Shown piece after piece: positions 641 through 17,519 of a DNA stretch of 17,519 bases (position 1 is the first letter of the stretch; every line of letters begins with the position of its first letter). The position numbers and the translations under genes are program-made. The notes beneath the pieces are model-generated. The model made no database searches and had not been told where the DNA came from. It was given only the letters and a program-made list of their open reading frames with translations. The DNA is from Spirochaetaceae bacterium (GTDB taxonomy: Bacteria; Spirochaetota; Spirochaetia; SZUA-6; Bin103). The stretch lies in assembly GCA_028818385.1 (NCBI GenBank), contig JAPPNY010000126.1, positions 1 to 17,519 of the forward strand. Direction: 5' to 3'.

Positions 641-1594
641 TCACATCCCCAGGCGGCGCAATTCGTCATCGACGATCGCGGCCAGCGTCGAGAACGGCAC
701 CGCACCACCAATGAACCGACCGTTGACGAACATGGCCGGGGTTCCCGATACGCCGAGAGCATCGCCGGCGCGCACGTCGGCCAACACCGCGTCGTAGTGT
801 CGGCCCGAATCCAGGCACCGGCCGAACGCGACCGTGTCCAGGTCCAGCCGCTCCGCTTTCGCTCTCAGAGCATCGACCGCCAGGTCGCCTTGCTCGGCAA
901 ACATCACGTCGTGTAGCTGCCAGAATCGGCCTTGCTCGCCGGCACATAGCGATGCTTCGGCGGCCGTCCAAGCGTTCGGGTGAATGCCGGTCAGCGGATA
1001 GTGCCGGTACACCACGCGCAGCTTGTCTCCGTACTGGCGCTGGGCCTGTTCCAATATCGGTAGCAGCCGGGCACAGTAGGGGCACTCGAAGTCTGAAAAC
1101 TCCACGATGGTCACCGGCGCATCCGGTGGGCCGGCGGCCGGGAACCCGTCGGCAGCCACGTCGTAGCGCAGCGGTTCCAGCAAGTACGCCACCGAGTAGC
1201 GACGTTCCAGGGCGCCATATCCCGCTGCGCGGCGCTCGATGCGCTCCGCTACTGCGTCGGCCGTGATGCCGAGCCGGTCAGCTTCCAGGGCTCGCAGCCG
1301 CACGTGCACCAAGTCCCGCAGAATCGCTTGCAGCACCTCGTCCCAGCCGCGCTCGGCGTCAATCTGACAGCGCCGCAGGTCGGCCTCGTAGCCTTCAATC
1401 GCAGGCGCCGCAGCCGCGTACAGGTCGGCCAAGCTCAGGGCTTCGGCACCGTCGATCGTCGCCGCGGGCTCCGACCACGCGTTGAGCGCCGACGCCAGCA
1501 GCGCGAGCGTCAGCGCCGCGCCACGCGCTCCCTGCAGCGCTCGGACCGCCGGGTGATCCGGCGCGGATGCCGGGACCCTGAGAAAGCGTGGCAA
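641..1594 (-). CDS. DsbA-family thiol:disulfide oxidoreductase
   Basis: 317 residues. The C-terminal half (about 157-315) is a DsbA/Thioredoxin_4-type fold. It has the active-site motif CPYC at 171-174 in FSDFECPYC, and the cis-proline motif SGTPAMFVNG (Pro286) that packs against it. Enzymes of this family make or shuffle disulfide bonds in exported proteins. The first half (about 45-145) is a charged helical region resembling the SurA/dimerisation-like N-terminus of several bacterial DSBA proteins. A hydrophobic stretch at 24-38 (GARGAALTLALLASALNAW) looks like a signal or anchor, but the N-region is unusually long. The start is a TTG without a visible ribosome-binding site, and the frame stays open upstream, so the true start is uncertain. 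The start lies 42 bp from the left recombination-like site (1636-1658), whose inversion could change its transcription. Confidence 0.85.
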   Translation of the reverse strand: MPRFLRVPASAPDHPAVRALQGARGAALTLALLASALNAWSEPAATIDGAEALSLADLYAAAAPAIEGYEADLRRCQIDAERGWDEVLQAILRDLVHVRLRALEADRLGITADAVAERIERRAAGYGALERRYSVAYLLEPLRYDVAADGFPAAGPPDAPVTIVEFSDFECPYCARLLPILEQAQRQYGDKLRVVYRHYPLTGIHPNAWTAAEASLCAGEQGRFWQLHDVMFAEQGDLAVDALRAKAERLDLDTVAFGRCLDSGRHYDAVLADVRAGDALGVSGTPAMFVNGRFIGGAVPFSTLAAIVDDELRRLGM

Positions 1595-2040
1595 TCTACG
1601 GCGGGTCGTGGGTGGTAGGCGGGGCGTCGTCAGCAGCCGACAACTGCGATTGTCGGCAGTTATGCGGCCGATCGGTCTTGGCGGTCTGCTTGCCTAAAGC
1701 ACGACAGGTAAGAGAAATGTCGGCGGGAGACCTACAAACGAGTGGGCGGCAGGTCGCAGCGTCTCGGAGCCCACGTCGATGCCGGTGATCGGCCCACTGG
1801 GCGAGTGGTTATATGGTGGCCGTCGGAAGTTTAGACAGCTAATTGACGCTCAGGGATATGAAAAAGATTCTCGACATCCCATGGAGATTATGAATAAAAG
1901 ATGACACTGGCCGTTCTTACAAGTGTACGGTGGACCCCGTCATGCCAGCGAATACCATCTCGCCACCCCTGCCGGTGTCACACGATGACACTCTCCCACC
2001 CGGACTCCTGACGAGCCCCCTGGTGTTGAGGAGTATCGTC
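1595..2040. other. Intergenic region upstream of the recombinase
   Basis: 446 bp without a convincing gene. It holds the left recombination-like site (1636-1658). A clearly more AT-rich patch at about 1808-1925 is likely to carry the recombinase promoter. Candidate -10 boxes are AT-rich segments near 1894-1900 (plus strand) and TATAAC at 1813-1808 (minus strand, towards the DsbA-like gene). Neither has a good -35, so no promoter is called. An in-frame upstream extension of the recombinase from GTG 1930 exists but has no ribosome-binding site. Confidence 0.5.
1636..1658 (+). repeat. Left dif-like inverted site
   Basis: The site is arm GCCGACAA (1636-1643), centre CTGCGA (1644-1649), arm TTGTCGGC (1650-1657) and an A at 1658. 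The arms are perfect reverse complements around an asymmetric 6-bp centre. The whole 23-bp unit recurs in reverse complement at 3352-3374, and the match stops abruptly on both sides. Arms of 8-11 bp around a 6-8 bp spacer are the usual layout of a tyrosine-recombinase crossover site (Xer/dif has 6 bp). The recombinase gene lies between the two copies. Confidence 0.75.
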
Positions 2041-3075
2041 ATGGCACTCGATCTCCTTGCCTTCATCGGCGTCGCGGTCGCCGGCGCCATAGCCACCCTG
2101 TCGGCGGTGTACGACCACGCGAATCAGCGGCGGGGCGAACCTCGTGGCCTCTCCGACGAGGACACGGAGCGCATCGAGGCTGCCCTCAAGACCGCCTACC
2201 GCGCGAAGAACACGCGCCGTGCCTACCTCGCTGGGTGGAAGCGGTGGCAGGCATGGGCTTGCGATCACGGCGTGCGGGCCCTGTCGGCCGATCCGGCGTC
2301 GGTGGCCGCCTATCTCGCCGAGCGGGCCGCGTCCGGCAAGACGCGGGCTACGGTGCGCTCGGACCGCGCAGCGATCGGCGCAGCGCACCGCGCCGTAGAG
2401 GCTGGCGATCCCACCGCCGACGAAGGCGTGCGGCGCGTGATCCGCTTGATGGGCACGGCGAACCACGGCAAGGGCCGGGGGCAGGTCCAGGGCCTGGATT
2501 GGGGCGGCGTCGATCGAACCGCTGTGCTGGCCGAGAAGAGGGGCTCACTCGCCGGCCTCCGCGACGCCGCGCTGATCCGTCTAGGCAGCGATGCGCTCTT
2601 GCGCGTGTCCGAGCTTGCGTCGCTCTTGGTGTCCGATCTGCGTGTACAACCGGACGGCAGCGGCACGATCACCATCCGGCACTCCAAGACGGATCAGGCC
2701 GGGCGTGGACACGTGTGCTATCTCGGCAAGCCGACCGTGGCGGCCATTCGGCGCTACCTGCAGGCAGCCGGGGTCAAGTCCGGCGCGCTGTTCCGCGGCG
2801 TGAACAAGGGCGGCGCCGTGCGCGAGCGCCTCGGCGTGCGGTCCATCCGCCAGATCATAAAACGGCGGGCGGCCGATGCCGGGATCGTGGGCGGGATATC
2901 GGGTCACTCGCTGCGCGTGGGGGCGGTGCAGTCCCTGGTCACCGCCGGGGCGAGCCTTGTCGACCTACAGCGTGCCGGCGACTGGACGTCGCCGCAGATG
3001 CCGGCGCACTACGCACGGAATCAACTGGCGGCGCGCGGCGCCGTGGCACGGCTCAGGTACGGGGTGGCAGCGTAG
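2041..3075 (+). CDS. Tyrosine recombinase/integrase
   Basis: 344 residues from ATG 2041. This start has a GAGGAG ribosome-binding site (2028-2033) 7 nt upstream. The frame is open back to GTG 1930, which would give 381 residues, but no comparable site precedes that start. The order is typical: a SAM-like core-binding domain at about 38-135, a linker, and a catalytic domain at about 160-340. The catalytic set is complete: Arg188 (DALLRVSEL), Lys216 (RHSKTD), His289 and Arg292 (GHSLR), Trp315 in the second His/Trp position (GDWTSP), and the nucleophile Tyr324 (PAHYAR). Such enzymes cut and rejoin DNA at short palindromic core sites. The flanking inverted sites are the obvious substrate candidates. 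Unusual is a hydrophobic, nearly uncharged segment at residues 5-23 before the DNA-binding domain. A GTG at 2107 would remove it but has no good ribosome-binding site. Confidence 0.88.
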   Translation: MALDLLAFIGVAVAGAIATLSAVYDHANQRRGEPRGLSDEDTERIEAALKTAYRAKNTRRAYLAGWKRWQAWACDHGVRALSADPASVAAYLAERAASGKTRATVRSDRAAIGAAHRAVEAGDPTADEGVRRVIRLMGTANHGKGRGQVQGLDWGGVDRTAVLAEKRGSLAGLRDAALIRLGSDALLRVSELASLLVSDLRVQPDGSGTITIRHSKTDQAGRGHVCYLGKPTVAAIRRYLQAAGVKSGALFRGVNKGGAVRERLGVRSIRQIIKRRAADAGIVGGISGHSLRVGAVQSLVTAGASLVDLQRAGDWTSPQMPAHYARNQLAARGAVARLRYGVAA

Positions 3076-3350
3076 CGAAGGGCGACCGCCCAACCTCCCG
3101 GAAGGTGAGACCGCTGGACCGACGGCTTGCGAAAAAGTCGACGGAGTCCCGGTCGGGAGCCACGACGGCCTAACCGGCAAGGCGGTCACGCTCGCCTCCA
3201 GCTCGTCCGAAACTCGCCCAGGGGACGTCGAAGTGCCGCGTGCCGGTCATCGTGCCGAAGGGGAGTTGACAGCCACGCTGCGCTATGCTTGAATAGGGCT
3301 TGTGACTGACGAACGTGCTCTCATTGATTCGGGCCGAAGTCGTTCGTTGC
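3076..3350. other. Gene-free stretch between the recombinase and the right site
   Basis: About 275 bp without a convincing gene. Short open frames on both strands lack ribosome-binding sites and plausible protein composition. It holds the outward-facing promoter candidate at 3266-3294. No terminator hairpin is evident directly after the recombinase stop. Confidence 0.5.
3266..3294 (+). promoter_or_regulatory. Sigma70-like promoter facing out of the recombinase cassette
   Basis: A perfect -35 box TTGACA (3266-3271) is followed after 17 bp by TTGAAT (3289-3294), which matches four of six positions of TATAAT. It points right, crosses the right inverted site 57 bp further on, and could drive the transporter operon starting at 3808 through a long leader. 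If the cassette inverted, it would point across the left site into the DsbA-like gene. This is called from sequence alone; spirochaete promoters of this type are sigma70-like. Confidence 0.45.
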
Positions 3351-3376
3351 GTGCCGACAATCGCAGTTGTCGGCAC
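3351..3376 (-). repeat. Right dif-like inverted site
   Basis: A perfect dyad with 10-bp arms, GTGCCGACAA (3351-3360) and TTGTCGGCAC (3367-3376), flanks the 6-bp centre TCGCAG (3361-3366). Bases 3352-3374 are the exact reverse complement of the left site at 1636-1658. The arms are longer here than on the left (10 against 8 bp), so this may be the better binding site. The 26-bp size is close to the 28-bp Xer/dif core. Confidence 0.75.
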
Positions 3377-3807
3377 TAACTTGGCAGTGTCGAACACATG
3401 CGCTGTCGCTTGCCGACGGCGCTCCGAGGAGTGCAGCACGGAGGCATACACAGTGCCTTGGGGATGTGGTCCGATAAACGTCCTCACCGTGTCGGTGGAC
3501 AGTTGGCGGCCGAACTCAGCCGGACCACCGGTACGATAGTAAACCCTGTGAGCCAGTTCGTTCGTCAGCCACCCGGTGACTGTGCAGTGGCGACGGGAAC
3601 GCTGGGAGCCGCACTCGCGAGCATCCGCTCCCGACCATGGCAGCAGGCTACACGTTCAGCGGACGGATGGTGCGCCGTCGGGGCGGCCGCTCAGATACAG
3701 GTCGTGTGTCAGTGTCGTCGGCGCATCTGCGGTCTGTCAACCCTGCCGCCGGGCTGGTAGCGATGGCACTTCTGCGAGGCGGCCCTGACACGGCACTTGG
3801 GACTAAT
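3377..3807. other. Leader/intergenic region before transporter cassette A
   Basis: About 430 bp between the right inverted site and the first permease. The permease frame is open back to ATG 3637, with another ATG at 3763. However, the extra N-terminal residues (Arg/Gly/Ser-rich, no membrane segment) do not resemble an LplB-type permease. No ribosome-binding site supports those starts, so I treat this as leader DNA. No clear promoter other than the distant one at 3266-3294 was found; TACGAT at 3532-3537 is an isolated -10-like word without a -35. Confidence 0.45.
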
Positions 3808-4737
3808 GTGGTTTCGTATCCGCTCAAGCGGCCGTCGATCCTCAAGCAGTACTACCGCCACCGCTATCTGTTCGTCCTGCTGGCAGCCGGGCTCGTCTGG
3901 ACCATCATCTTCAAGTACGGTCCCATGTACGGGATCATCATCGCGTTCCAGAAGTACCGTTTCTGGGACGGCATCTGGGGCAGCGAGTGGGTGGGATTCC
4001 ATCACTTCGTGCGGATGTTCAATGGCACCACCGACTTCGGCCGGGTCTTCCGCAACACCCTCCTCATCAGCCTGTATCGGTTGTTCTGGGGCTTTCCGGC
4101 GCCGATCATCCTGGCGCTGCTCCTGAACGAGGTGCGTCAACGCCACTTCAAGCGCACCGTGCAGACGATCAGCTACCTGCCGCACTTCCTGTCATGGGTC
4201 GTCCTGGGCGGCGTGATCCGGGCCATCCTGTCCCCTTCCGCCGGGGCGATCAACCTGATCATCACCGGCCTGGGCGGCGACCGGATCCACTTTCTGGCCG
4301 ACGTCAACTGGTTCGTGACCGTCCTGATCACCACCGGCGTCTGGCAGCAGGTCGGATGGGGATCGATCATCTTCCTGGCGGCCATCGCCGGAGTGGATCC
4401 GCAGCTTCACGAGTCGGCGATCGTCGACGGCGCCGGCAGGATGAGGCAGGCGTGGAGCATCACGATACCGTCGATCATCCCGGTGATCATCATCGTGTTC
4501 ATCCTGCGGGTGGGCGACATCCTGGAAGCAGGCTTCGACCAGATCTTCATGCTCTACAACCCGGCGGTCTACGAGGTGGCAGACATCATCGATACGTACG
4601 TCTATCGCGTCGGGCTGGCAGAGTTGCAATACAGCTTTGCCGCCGCCGTGGGGCTGTTCAAGAACGTGATCGGCCTGATCCTGGTAATCATCGTCAATCG
4701 CGCCGTCAAGAGCTTCGGCGATTACGGGATCTGGTAG
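3808..4737 (+). CDS. ABC sugar importer permease, LplB/YteP type (cassette A)
   Basis: 309 residues from GTG 3808, chosen because GGGA lies 5 nt upstream and the protein then begins like other LplB-family proteins (basic residues, then the first membrane helix at about 21-42 with FKYGPMYGIIIAF). About six membrane segments are visible. The cytoplasmic EAA loop that docks on the ATPase is at about 202-221 (ESAIVDGAGRMRQAWSITIP). The family (COG4209) imports complex or acidic oligosaccharides: examples are B. subtilis YteP (rhamnogalacturonan products) and AlgM1 (alginate). It is the first gene of a three-gene set with the next permease (10 bp downstream) and a binding protein. It is clearly paralogous to the permease at 12140-13117; both contain WGFPAPIILALLL. 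Longer starts at 3763 or 3637 cannot be excluded. Confidence 0.88.
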   Translation: MVSYPLKRPSILKQYYRHRYLFVLLAAGLVWTIIFKYGPMYGIIIAFQKYRFWDGIWGSEWVGFHHFVRMFNGTTDFGRVFRNTLLISLYRLFWGFPAPIILALLLNEVRQRHFKRTVQTISYLPHFLSWVVLGGVIRAILSPSAGAINLIITGLGGDRIHFLADVNWFVTVLITTGVWQQVGWGSIIFLAAIAGVDPQLHESAIVDGAGRMRQAWSITIPSIIPVIIIVFILRVGDILEAGFDQIFMLYNPAVYEVADIIDTYVYRVGLAELQYSFAAAVGLFKNVIGLILVIIVNRAVKSFGDYGIW

Positions 4738-16836: not shown

Positions 16837-17451
16837 TCAGCGAATCCCCAACGCGATCGTCCCCTGAAATCCAGCGTCGGTCACAATCGTGTCTCGCCTG
16901 CCCGAACCGTCGAGATTCGCCCGTCGGATCGCATCACCGTCGCGCCAGTACATCTTGCCGCCGGCGACGTCCAAGGCGATCGCGTTCAGGTGCGAGGTTG
17001 CCGTCAGCAGGTCGTGAGGATCGGATCCGTCGAGACTCGCTCGCCGGATCACGTTGCCATCGCTCCAGTACATCTTGCCGTTGACGACATCCAAGGCGAT
17101 CGCGTCCAGGTACGAGGCTGCCGTCAGCAGGTCGTGAGGATCGGATCCGTTGAGACTCGCCCGCCGGATTACGTTGCCGTCGCTCCAGTACATCTTGCCG
17201 TTGACGACGTCCAAGGCCATCGCATCCGGGTACGTATCTGTCACTGTCAGCAGGTCCTGAGGATTGGATCCGTCGAGATTCGCCCGCCGGATCACGTCGC
17301 CATCGCGCCAGTACATCTTGTGGTTGACGACGTCCAGGGCGATCGCACGTACGGACGCCGTAAGCAGATCCTGAGAACCGGAGCCGTCGAGATTCGAGCG
17401 CCGGATCACGCGACCGTTGCTCCAGTACATCTTCCTGCCGGCTGCGTCCAA
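16837..17451 (-). CDS. YWTD-type beta-propeller repeat protein, 5'-disrupted or partial
   Basis: 204 residues made entirely of five copies of a repeat of about 40 residues (KMYWSDGNVIRRASLDGSDP, then LLT and IALDV). This is the YWTD/LDL-receptor class B (DUF5050-like) propeller blade. Such propellers normally have six blades, so at least one is missing. The start used is a TTG inside the IALD motif of an upstream blade, so it is unlikely to be a true start. The frame meets a TGA at 17481-17479 after only nine more upstream codons. The C-terminus is a natural stop shortly after the last blade (TIALGIR). No signal peptide or ribosome-binding site is visible. It is either the 3' part of a gene broken near 17457-17481 or a repeat remnant. 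Function unknown; these propellers usually mediate protein binding. Confidence 0.6.
   Translation of the reverse strand: MDAAGRKMYWSNGRVIRRSNLDGSGSQDLLTASVRAIALDVVNHKMYWRDGDVIRRANLDGSNPQDLLTVTDTYPDAMALDVVNGKMYWSDGNVIRRASLNGSDPHDLLTAASYLDAIALDVVNGKMYWSDGNVIRRASLDGSDPHDLLTATSHLNAIALDVAGGKMYWRDGDAIRRANLDGSGRRDTIVTDAGFQGTIALGIR
16890..17451 (-). repeat. Five tandem repeats of about 120 bp encoding propeller blades
   Basis: The word TACATCTT recurs at 16949, 17069, 17189, 17312 and 17426, spacings of 120, 120, 123 and 114 bp. The central units are nearly identical in DNA (for example 16981-17040 against 17101-17160, differing at only a few bases), which indicates recent duplication or gene conversion. 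The outer units have diverged more, and the length differences are whole codons. Confidence 0.8.
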
Positions 17452-17490
17452 GGCGAAGTCCTGCCTAGCCCGCTTCGCTCACCAAGGCGA
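17448..17490. repeat. 9-bp direct repeat bracketing the break in the propeller gene
   Basis: CCAAGGCGA occurs at 17448-17456 and again at 17482-17490, 34 bp apart. On the minus strand both copies encode the IALD part of a blade. Deleting one copy plus the 25 bp between would rejoin an open frame (…SQPIALD…) that runs to the window edge. The extra 34 bp puts the upstream part out of frame. Confidence 0.5.
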
Positions 17491-17519
17491 TCGGCTGGCT
17501 TGATCTTGGGCCCGAGTCG

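Follow-up and report, generated by a model that had tools for sequence, protein, structure and literature searches.

The stretch of DNA analysed here, referred to as the window, is 17,519 nt long. Its central feature is a module at 1635–3375 (+) that consists of a left crossover site, a recombinase gene, an outward promoter-like sequence and a right crossover site, and whose gammaproteobacterial homologues have sequence in common from one site to the other. Inverted-repeat and palindrome scans placed the left site, AGCCGACAA-CTGCGA-TTGTCGGCA, at 1635–1658 (+) with its centre at 1644–1649. The right site, TGCCGACAA-TCGCAG-TTGTCGGCA, lies inverted relative to it at 3352–3375 (+), with its centre at 3361–3366. 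A preliminary description of this DNA had reported an exact 23-bp inverted pair (1636–1658 and 3352–3374), a palindrome with a 6-bp centre in each copy and oppositely oriented centres, all of which we found as described. Of the 25 longest inverted repeats listed for the window, only this pair is complementary throughout, and base composition predicts 2.4e-5 perfect 23-bp inverted pairs in the window. With up to three mismatches allowed, the palindrome TGCCGACAA-N6-TTGTCGGCA occurs twice in the window (one mismatch at 1635–1658, zero at 3352–3375) and in 0 of 200 dinucleotide shuffles of it. The arms are perfect over 8–9 bp around the 6-bp centre, and the centres CTGCGA and TCGCAG are exact reverse complements. 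The exact 22-bp site of the window had no match in the genome collection searched, and thus this precise site is not widespread there. Among viral contigs the palindrome with a free centre was found in 11 stretches, and none of the 49 viral stretches matching a protein pattern encodes a relative of the window recombinase.

The gene between the sites (2041–3075, +) encodes a 344-aa tyrosine recombinase with a hydrophobic N-terminal extension and Pfam matches to PF00589 (7.1e-17) and PF02899 (3.5e-6). The catalytic set R-K-H-R-W-Y noted earlier for this gene is present and conserved: across the window protein and 29 relatives R188, R292 and W315 are invariant, while K216, H289 and Y324 are conserved at 90% or more. 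We take the catalytic roles of these six residues to be those usual in the family. In a search with a profile of 30 sequences the closest solved structure was Cre (E 2e-36), followed at a distance by XerD (6e-7). Given the catalytic residues and this best similarity, we class the enzyme as a Cre-type tyrosine recombinase, with an identity to Cre of 25%. Membership in the Xer/dif system was rejected, as the scores with the NCBIfam models for XerD, XerC and XerA (41, 36 and 46 bits) are far under the curated cut-offs of 330, 335 and 220. The preliminary description had also listed Mpi alongside Xer and Cre, which was an error, since Mpi is a serine recombinase according to an excerpt of PMC5903667. 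Scoring of 7999 candidates gave 1185 relatives of the window recombinase at E 1e-3, the closest being 88% and 87% identical to it. Of the 120 relatives listed, four sit on equally long 4.6-Mb contigs and two are named Spirochaetaceae; three DsbA relatives are likewise so named, and the host is probably a spirochaete. The N-terminus of the window protein (2041–2145) is hydrophobic, with the stretch MALDLLAFIGVAVAGAIATLSAVYD, which is common to the ten closest aligned relatives, is not found in that form in the other aligned relatives and is odd for a DNA enzyme.

To the left of the module, a divergent gene at 641–1594 (-) encodes an exported DsbA-like thioredoxin-fold protein (PF13462/PF01323), which we propose as the switched gene. 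Its start is uncertain and lies about 40–98 bp from the left site, the alternative start being judged by comparison with P0122. By eye, some 50 residues preceding the thioredoxin fold are missing relative to P0122 and P0145. A possible second gene in the same direction (38–445, -) was seen as an open reading frame for a small exported cysteine-containing protein; its N-terminus looks signal-like by eye and it has no Pfam match. Seven further contigs, matched on exact length, are common to relatives of the DsbA-like protein and relatives of the recombinase (the shift null has a mean of 0.4 and a maximum of 2), with close adjacency forced only on a 2665-bp contig and one of the seven measuring 3.4 Mb.

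The right flank holds an ABC transporter permease gene at 3808–4737 (+), matching PF00528 when the longer frame 3637–4734 was tested. With GTG at 3808 as the start, which is our own reading, it begins 432 bp from the right site. It is co-directional with the recombinase, whereas the right neighbours in relatives are convergent, and it could be the gene that is on. Near the right end of the module a matrix scan detected an outward sigma70-like sequence, TTGACA-17-TTGAAT, at 3266–3294 (+) with a z of 3.3, lying 66 bp from the centre as against 7–8 bp in relatives. We regard it as a candidate only, because a stricter consensus scan called no promoter between 1500 and 4000. Elsewhere in the window, five tandem copies of ∼120 bp (16904–17500) lie inside a gene at 16837–17451 (-), whose product is a repeat protein with similarity to LDL-receptor class B.

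Recurrence and mobility of the unit in relatives

A scan of representative genomes yielded 147 relatives of the recombinase, and we retained the best 80 loci. They come mostly from MAGs labelled Poribacteria, Dadabacteria, Nitrospinota and Gammaproteobacteria, many of which are presumably derived from sponges. The expectation that the site accompanies homologous recombinases was borne out in part. An inverted pair was recognised at 20 of the 80 loci, and a strong site within 500 bp upstream, its partner not recognised, at another 14. The remaining 46 have neither; a few of these have sites elsewhere and some of the contigs end nearby. Fourteen of the paired loci, among them L069 and L072 from a single genome, belong to one gammaproteobacterial type, and the others are L038, L048, L051, L058, L078 and L085.

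When up to two mismatches were allowed, the arm motif CCGAYAA-N6-TTRTCGG, derived from part of the same loci that were counted, had 21 matches in 173 kb close to the gene, including the two sites of the window, and 8 in 622 kb away from it. The sequence TTAACNCGCGTTA was found 27 times in 7 genomes (0 for the backward control), and 25 of these occurrences are beside a recombinase of this Cre-like family. The other two are G002:C7, at a contig end where the module is cut off, and G098:C179, which stands alone. Within one gammaproteobacterial genus, 11 of 16 genomes contain matches, up to seven per genome. Of 19 loci fetched from this genus 12 were examined, giving four real pairs, three pairs judged to be chance and five loci with none. 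The outer-arm pattern matched five times in 100 genomes, four times at known elements and once elsewhere (L171). The latter was taken as chance; it lies in a coding-looking stretch, presumably lysA, and matched 0 of 15 oriented element loci. Downstream of the recombinase, a Poribacteria locus (L028, 7725–11160) has four perfect CCGATAA-N6-TTATCGG sites that all differ in their centres, a possible array. Two related recombinase genes stand in tandem in L037 and L049, and likewise in L045 and L023 via shorter direct repeats. We found no description of this kind of unit in the literature searched, which excludes subscription papers and preprints.

Non-orthologous copies in one genome (L153/L161, 94.6%, and L157/L159, 88.8%) align from the left to the right site, to within about ten bases. 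As these copies at unrelated places match only from site to site, the gammaproteobacterial unit is mobile. The sequence common to L153 and L154 extends ∼110 bp further left and 67 bp further right. At loci with a common right flank the left flank switches at the left site (L153/L166, L157/L163, L161/L165 and L168/L170), and with it the exported gene differs; L162 and L166 have the left flank in common and not the right. The rsmI-rnpB interval, in which RsmI was assigned by Pfam and rnpB is our reading of the sequence, lacks the insert in two relatives (L200, L202) and is ∼2.6 and 2.0 kb longer in two others. The empty loci showed neither a crossover-like palindrome nor crisp borders, and no crisp target duplication was seen at this one insertion with empty relatives. 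An insertion sequence with a DDE/HUH transposase was rejected, as the unit has a tyrosine recombinase instead. At the lone site in G098:C179 (L160) the gene-start (5′) inner arm is joined to a right-type outer arm, and the outer flank scores z values of 5.4 and 5.7 at best against right flanks and 3.8 at best against left flanks. L160 is a single remnant with an inversion-type junction. A left-site remnant with leader and no adjoining module was also seen in the reverse complement of L183, at ∼905–935.

Site centres, promoter-like sequence and exported-protein neighbours

Over 22 elements the left centre equals the reverse complement of the right centre at 131 of 132 positions, a count that is biased toward matched centres since most elements were found via exact inverted repeats, and that overstates independence since many are orthologs or close kin. 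The left and right sites differ at 42 of 220 positions in the inner arms and 83 of 220 in the outer arms (Fisher 1.3e-8 for centre against inner arms). The sole mismatch among correctly read centres is in L051, and L183, a locus identical to L078, has none. Eight forms of the centre occur over all elements read, and among related gammaproteobacterial copies it changes at both ends together (CTCGCG, CCCGCG and, in L159, CCCGCT). L159 was found by homology and missed by the repeat pattern, and is the cleanest unbiased case of matched centres. Strand exchange between the sites in inverted alignment would be expected to leave arms that vary around a centre that matches. We discarded excision between direct repeats and a Tn916-like reading, as the centres match in the inverted sense; read in the direct sense they mismatch at 2–6 of 6 positions.

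The right end of the relatives carries a conserved promoter-like sequence. Read directly from the sequences, all 23 gammaproteobacterial elements (the window, L048, L051 and the duplicates L072 and L078 not being counted) have an outward TTGC-18-TANNNT that ends 7–8 bp before the right centre, and the three middle bases of the −10 element vary among them. A scan of 26 elements with our own promoter matrices, from which L072 and L078 were again dropped, gave z>2 for 11 right ends and for none of the left ends, with mean z values of 1.6 and −0.4. The scan gave no promoter signal at the loci L051 and L048 (z −0.9 and −0.3). These loci, from one alphaproteobacterial Rhodobacteraceae MAG, are flanked on both sides by homologous porin genes that start 62–78 bp from the sites, the porins being recognised by PF13609 in L051 and by similarity in L048.

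The left end is biased toward exported proteins, as called by an ad hoc signal rule. In 19 of 24 elements a divergent exported-protein gene starts no more than 250 bp from the left site (L072 and L078 were left out as duplicates of L069 and L183, and the left flanks of L166 and L189 are too short). For the right side the count is 3 of 26, against a background of 143 in 1521 random stretches of the same loci. When sites were ignored, 21 of 79 relatives had a divergent exported gene compared with 56 of 340 random stretches, a mild enrichment, and exported genes were found downstream in 18 of 77 and upstream on the other strand in 7 of 71. In L161, L162 and L086 the exported gene starts ∼28–42 bp from the centre, a distance that leaves no room for a separate promoter in between, which would make a flipping promoter the simplest mechanism.

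The exported proteins themselves are diverse. Eleven were compared and showed likeness only between L086 and L087 and, weakly, between L065 and L164; Pfam scans of ten gave two weak matches below the cut-off and eight without any. By eye, HExxH-like motifs are present in the exported proteins of L155, L158, L164 and L087, which suggest exported metallopeptidases, and some other exported neighbours have a hydrophobic Gly/Ala-rich tail. The left flanks of L153, L154 and L183 have in common a ∼105-bp leader and a MGLKHLQ-type signal start, and their mature proteins differ. Two Nitrospinota-type loci with a single site, L033 and L075, have a divergent lipoprotein-like exported gene on the far side of the site; the two genes are alike at the start and have no Pfam match. 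Where Pfam identified the right neighbour, it was convergent with the recombinase at 10 of 11 loci tested, the minus-strand frame alone being tested for most loci; the right neighbour of L154 had no Pfam match.

A putative invertible promoter module and its counterparts

The mobility, the outward promoter-like end and the exported neighbours of the relatives point to an invertible promoter as the likely role of the unit. We consider it moderately likely that 1635–3375 of the window is a self-contained module of this kind, with a build like that of Hin and a Cre-like enzyme. The Cre-like recombinase would bind both inverted palindromes and exchange strands within the 6-bp centres, and the DNA between the sites would be inverted, recombinase gene included. 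A promoter at one end of the module would fire outward through the site. In the assembled orientation of the window and its gammaproteobacterial relatives this promoter would face away from the divergent gene for the exported protein and so leave it mostly off, and inversion would bring the promoter to that gene, in the window the DsbA-like one. The module would also spread, leaving several copies at unrelated places in related genomes. For the window this working is predicted by analogy with the relatives. Besides the matched centres, the site-bounded copies, the promoter-like right ends and the exported-gene bias, the module reading is favoured by the homologous porin genes on both sides of L051 and L048, the L160 junction and the seven contigs common to DsbA-like and recombinase relatives. 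Against it weigh the 60 of 80 loci with no recognised pair, the mild enrichment of divergent exported genes when sites are ignored, the missing promoter signal at the porin loci and, in the window, the uncalled promoter candidate 66 bp from the centre and the co-directional right neighbour. The preliminary description had proposed a self-inverting switch. Self-inversion is well supported by anatomy, as inverted, centre-matched sites around their own recombinase recur and their centres co-vary, but flank matches between elements indicate no flipped ortholog (35 same-side, 2 opposite-side). Both opposite-side matches link the two porin loci, where the porins on either side are similar to one another. 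Inversion may thus be rare or blocked. The earlier picture was also incomplete, in that the unit of the relatives is in addition mobile, carries an outward promoter-like sequence and stands beside exported-protein genes.

One alternative, which we regard as rather unlikely, views the unit as a small mobile element whose ends are the inverted sites, comparable to the Acinetobacter dif modules but autonomous. The sites would then serve movement or exchange of adjoining DNA, with gene switching incidental or absent. The multi-copy homology bounded by the sites, the change of left flank at the left site in loci with a common right flank, the rsmI-rnpB interval that is empty in two genomes and filled in two relatives, and the lack of flips among the flank comparisons all fit such an element. 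It leaves unexplained why the promoter-like sequence is at one end and the exported-gene bias at the other, and why the porin loci are symmetric. Moreover, in the tyrosine-recombinase family centre-matched inverted sites predict inversion and not excision, and the empty loci are without a crossover-like palindrome or crisp borders.

A recombinase for multimer resolution or housekeeping, having one site of its own and a functionless duplication as the second, would account for the 14 of 80 relatives with a strong upstream site and no recognised partner, and the best plasmid matches are indeed Cre-like enzymes of Methylobacterium plasmids. Resolution needs direct repeats, however, and both the window and 20 relatives have an inverted pair, whose centres match wherever correctly read save for the one mismatch in L051; several copies per genome also argue against this role, and we judge it highly improbable. 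The least probable account is that of a fixed relic, once moved or inverted and now locked, whose palindromes persist as terminators or by chance. The constant orientation among the flank comparisons and the decayed remnants L160 and L183 are in accordance with it. Against it, the open reading frame and catalytic residues are kept, as are sites and centres in relatives, and a consensus scan called no terminator-like site in the window between 1500 and 4000.

Returning to the invertible promoter module, a broader reading of it as a transposable switch is tentative. Taken jointly, the Cre-like enzyme, the two inverted sites and the outward promoter might make up a mobile cassette, inserting downstream of housekeeping genes along with a gene for an exported protein; this gene would be silent in most cells, be turned on by flipping and be exchangeable at the left crossover site, and sponge-dwelling bacteria of several phyla would share diversifying, phase-variable exported proteins. 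If the module works as proposed, phase variation would spread as a ready-made mobile part, beyond locus-by-locus invention, and would do so across phyla, notably among sponge symbionts, whose surface and secreted-protein variation is little known. Such switches would also be findable by sequence alone, through inverted palindromes that lie next to the enzyme and match in their 6-bp centres, and the module would be a tyrosine-enzyme counterpart of the Hin switch.

The invertible segment of Hin is ∼1 kb. Excerpts of two papers on Salmonella place the hin recombinase gene within the inverted segment (PMC5903667) and describe inverted hixL and hixR sites and a promoter that reaches the surface-protein operon fljBA in one orientation (PMC9368917). 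The module resembles Hin in architecture and not by homology, its recombinase gene lying inside inverted, centre-matched sites, and from this anatomy we infer a Hin-like working. Hin is a serine recombinase and the enzyme here a tyrosine, Cre-like one, so that the likeness implies no family membership. Unlike Hin, the unit of the relatives occurs in several copies per genome at unrelated places and next to many unrelated exported-protein genes. With Cre/loxP, whose enzyme is the closest solved relative, it shares palindromic arms around a short asymmetric centre. loxP has 13-bp arms and an 8-bp spacer, dimensions that differ from those found here: an inverted pair with arms of ∼9–11 bp (8–9 perfect bp in the window) and a matched 6-bp centre that co-varies in relatives.

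Every active Xer site pair found on Acinetobacter plasmids shared an identical 6-bp centre, oppositely oriented pairs inverted reversibly, and dif (pdif) modules bounded by inversely oriented sites are reported to undergo inversion and fusion (PMC9947245). The gammaproteobacterial relatives are similar to dif modules in their inversely oriented sites, identical centres and mobility. Unlike dif modules, which depend on host XerC/XerD, they have their own Cre-like enzyme and near-symmetrical arms. Excerpts of PMC6083910 and PMC5903667 describe fim, the UpaE element of E. coli and C. difficile RecV as a tyrosine recombinase acting on inverted promoter or leader DNA. The proposed module is like these switches in its tyrosine recombinase and putative invertible promoter. 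In the fim, UpaE and RecV switches the enzyme gene is outside the inverted segment, and we know of none that is a multi-copy mobile unit, whereas here the enzyme gene lies inside the segment and the unit is mobile and present in multiple copies in relatives.
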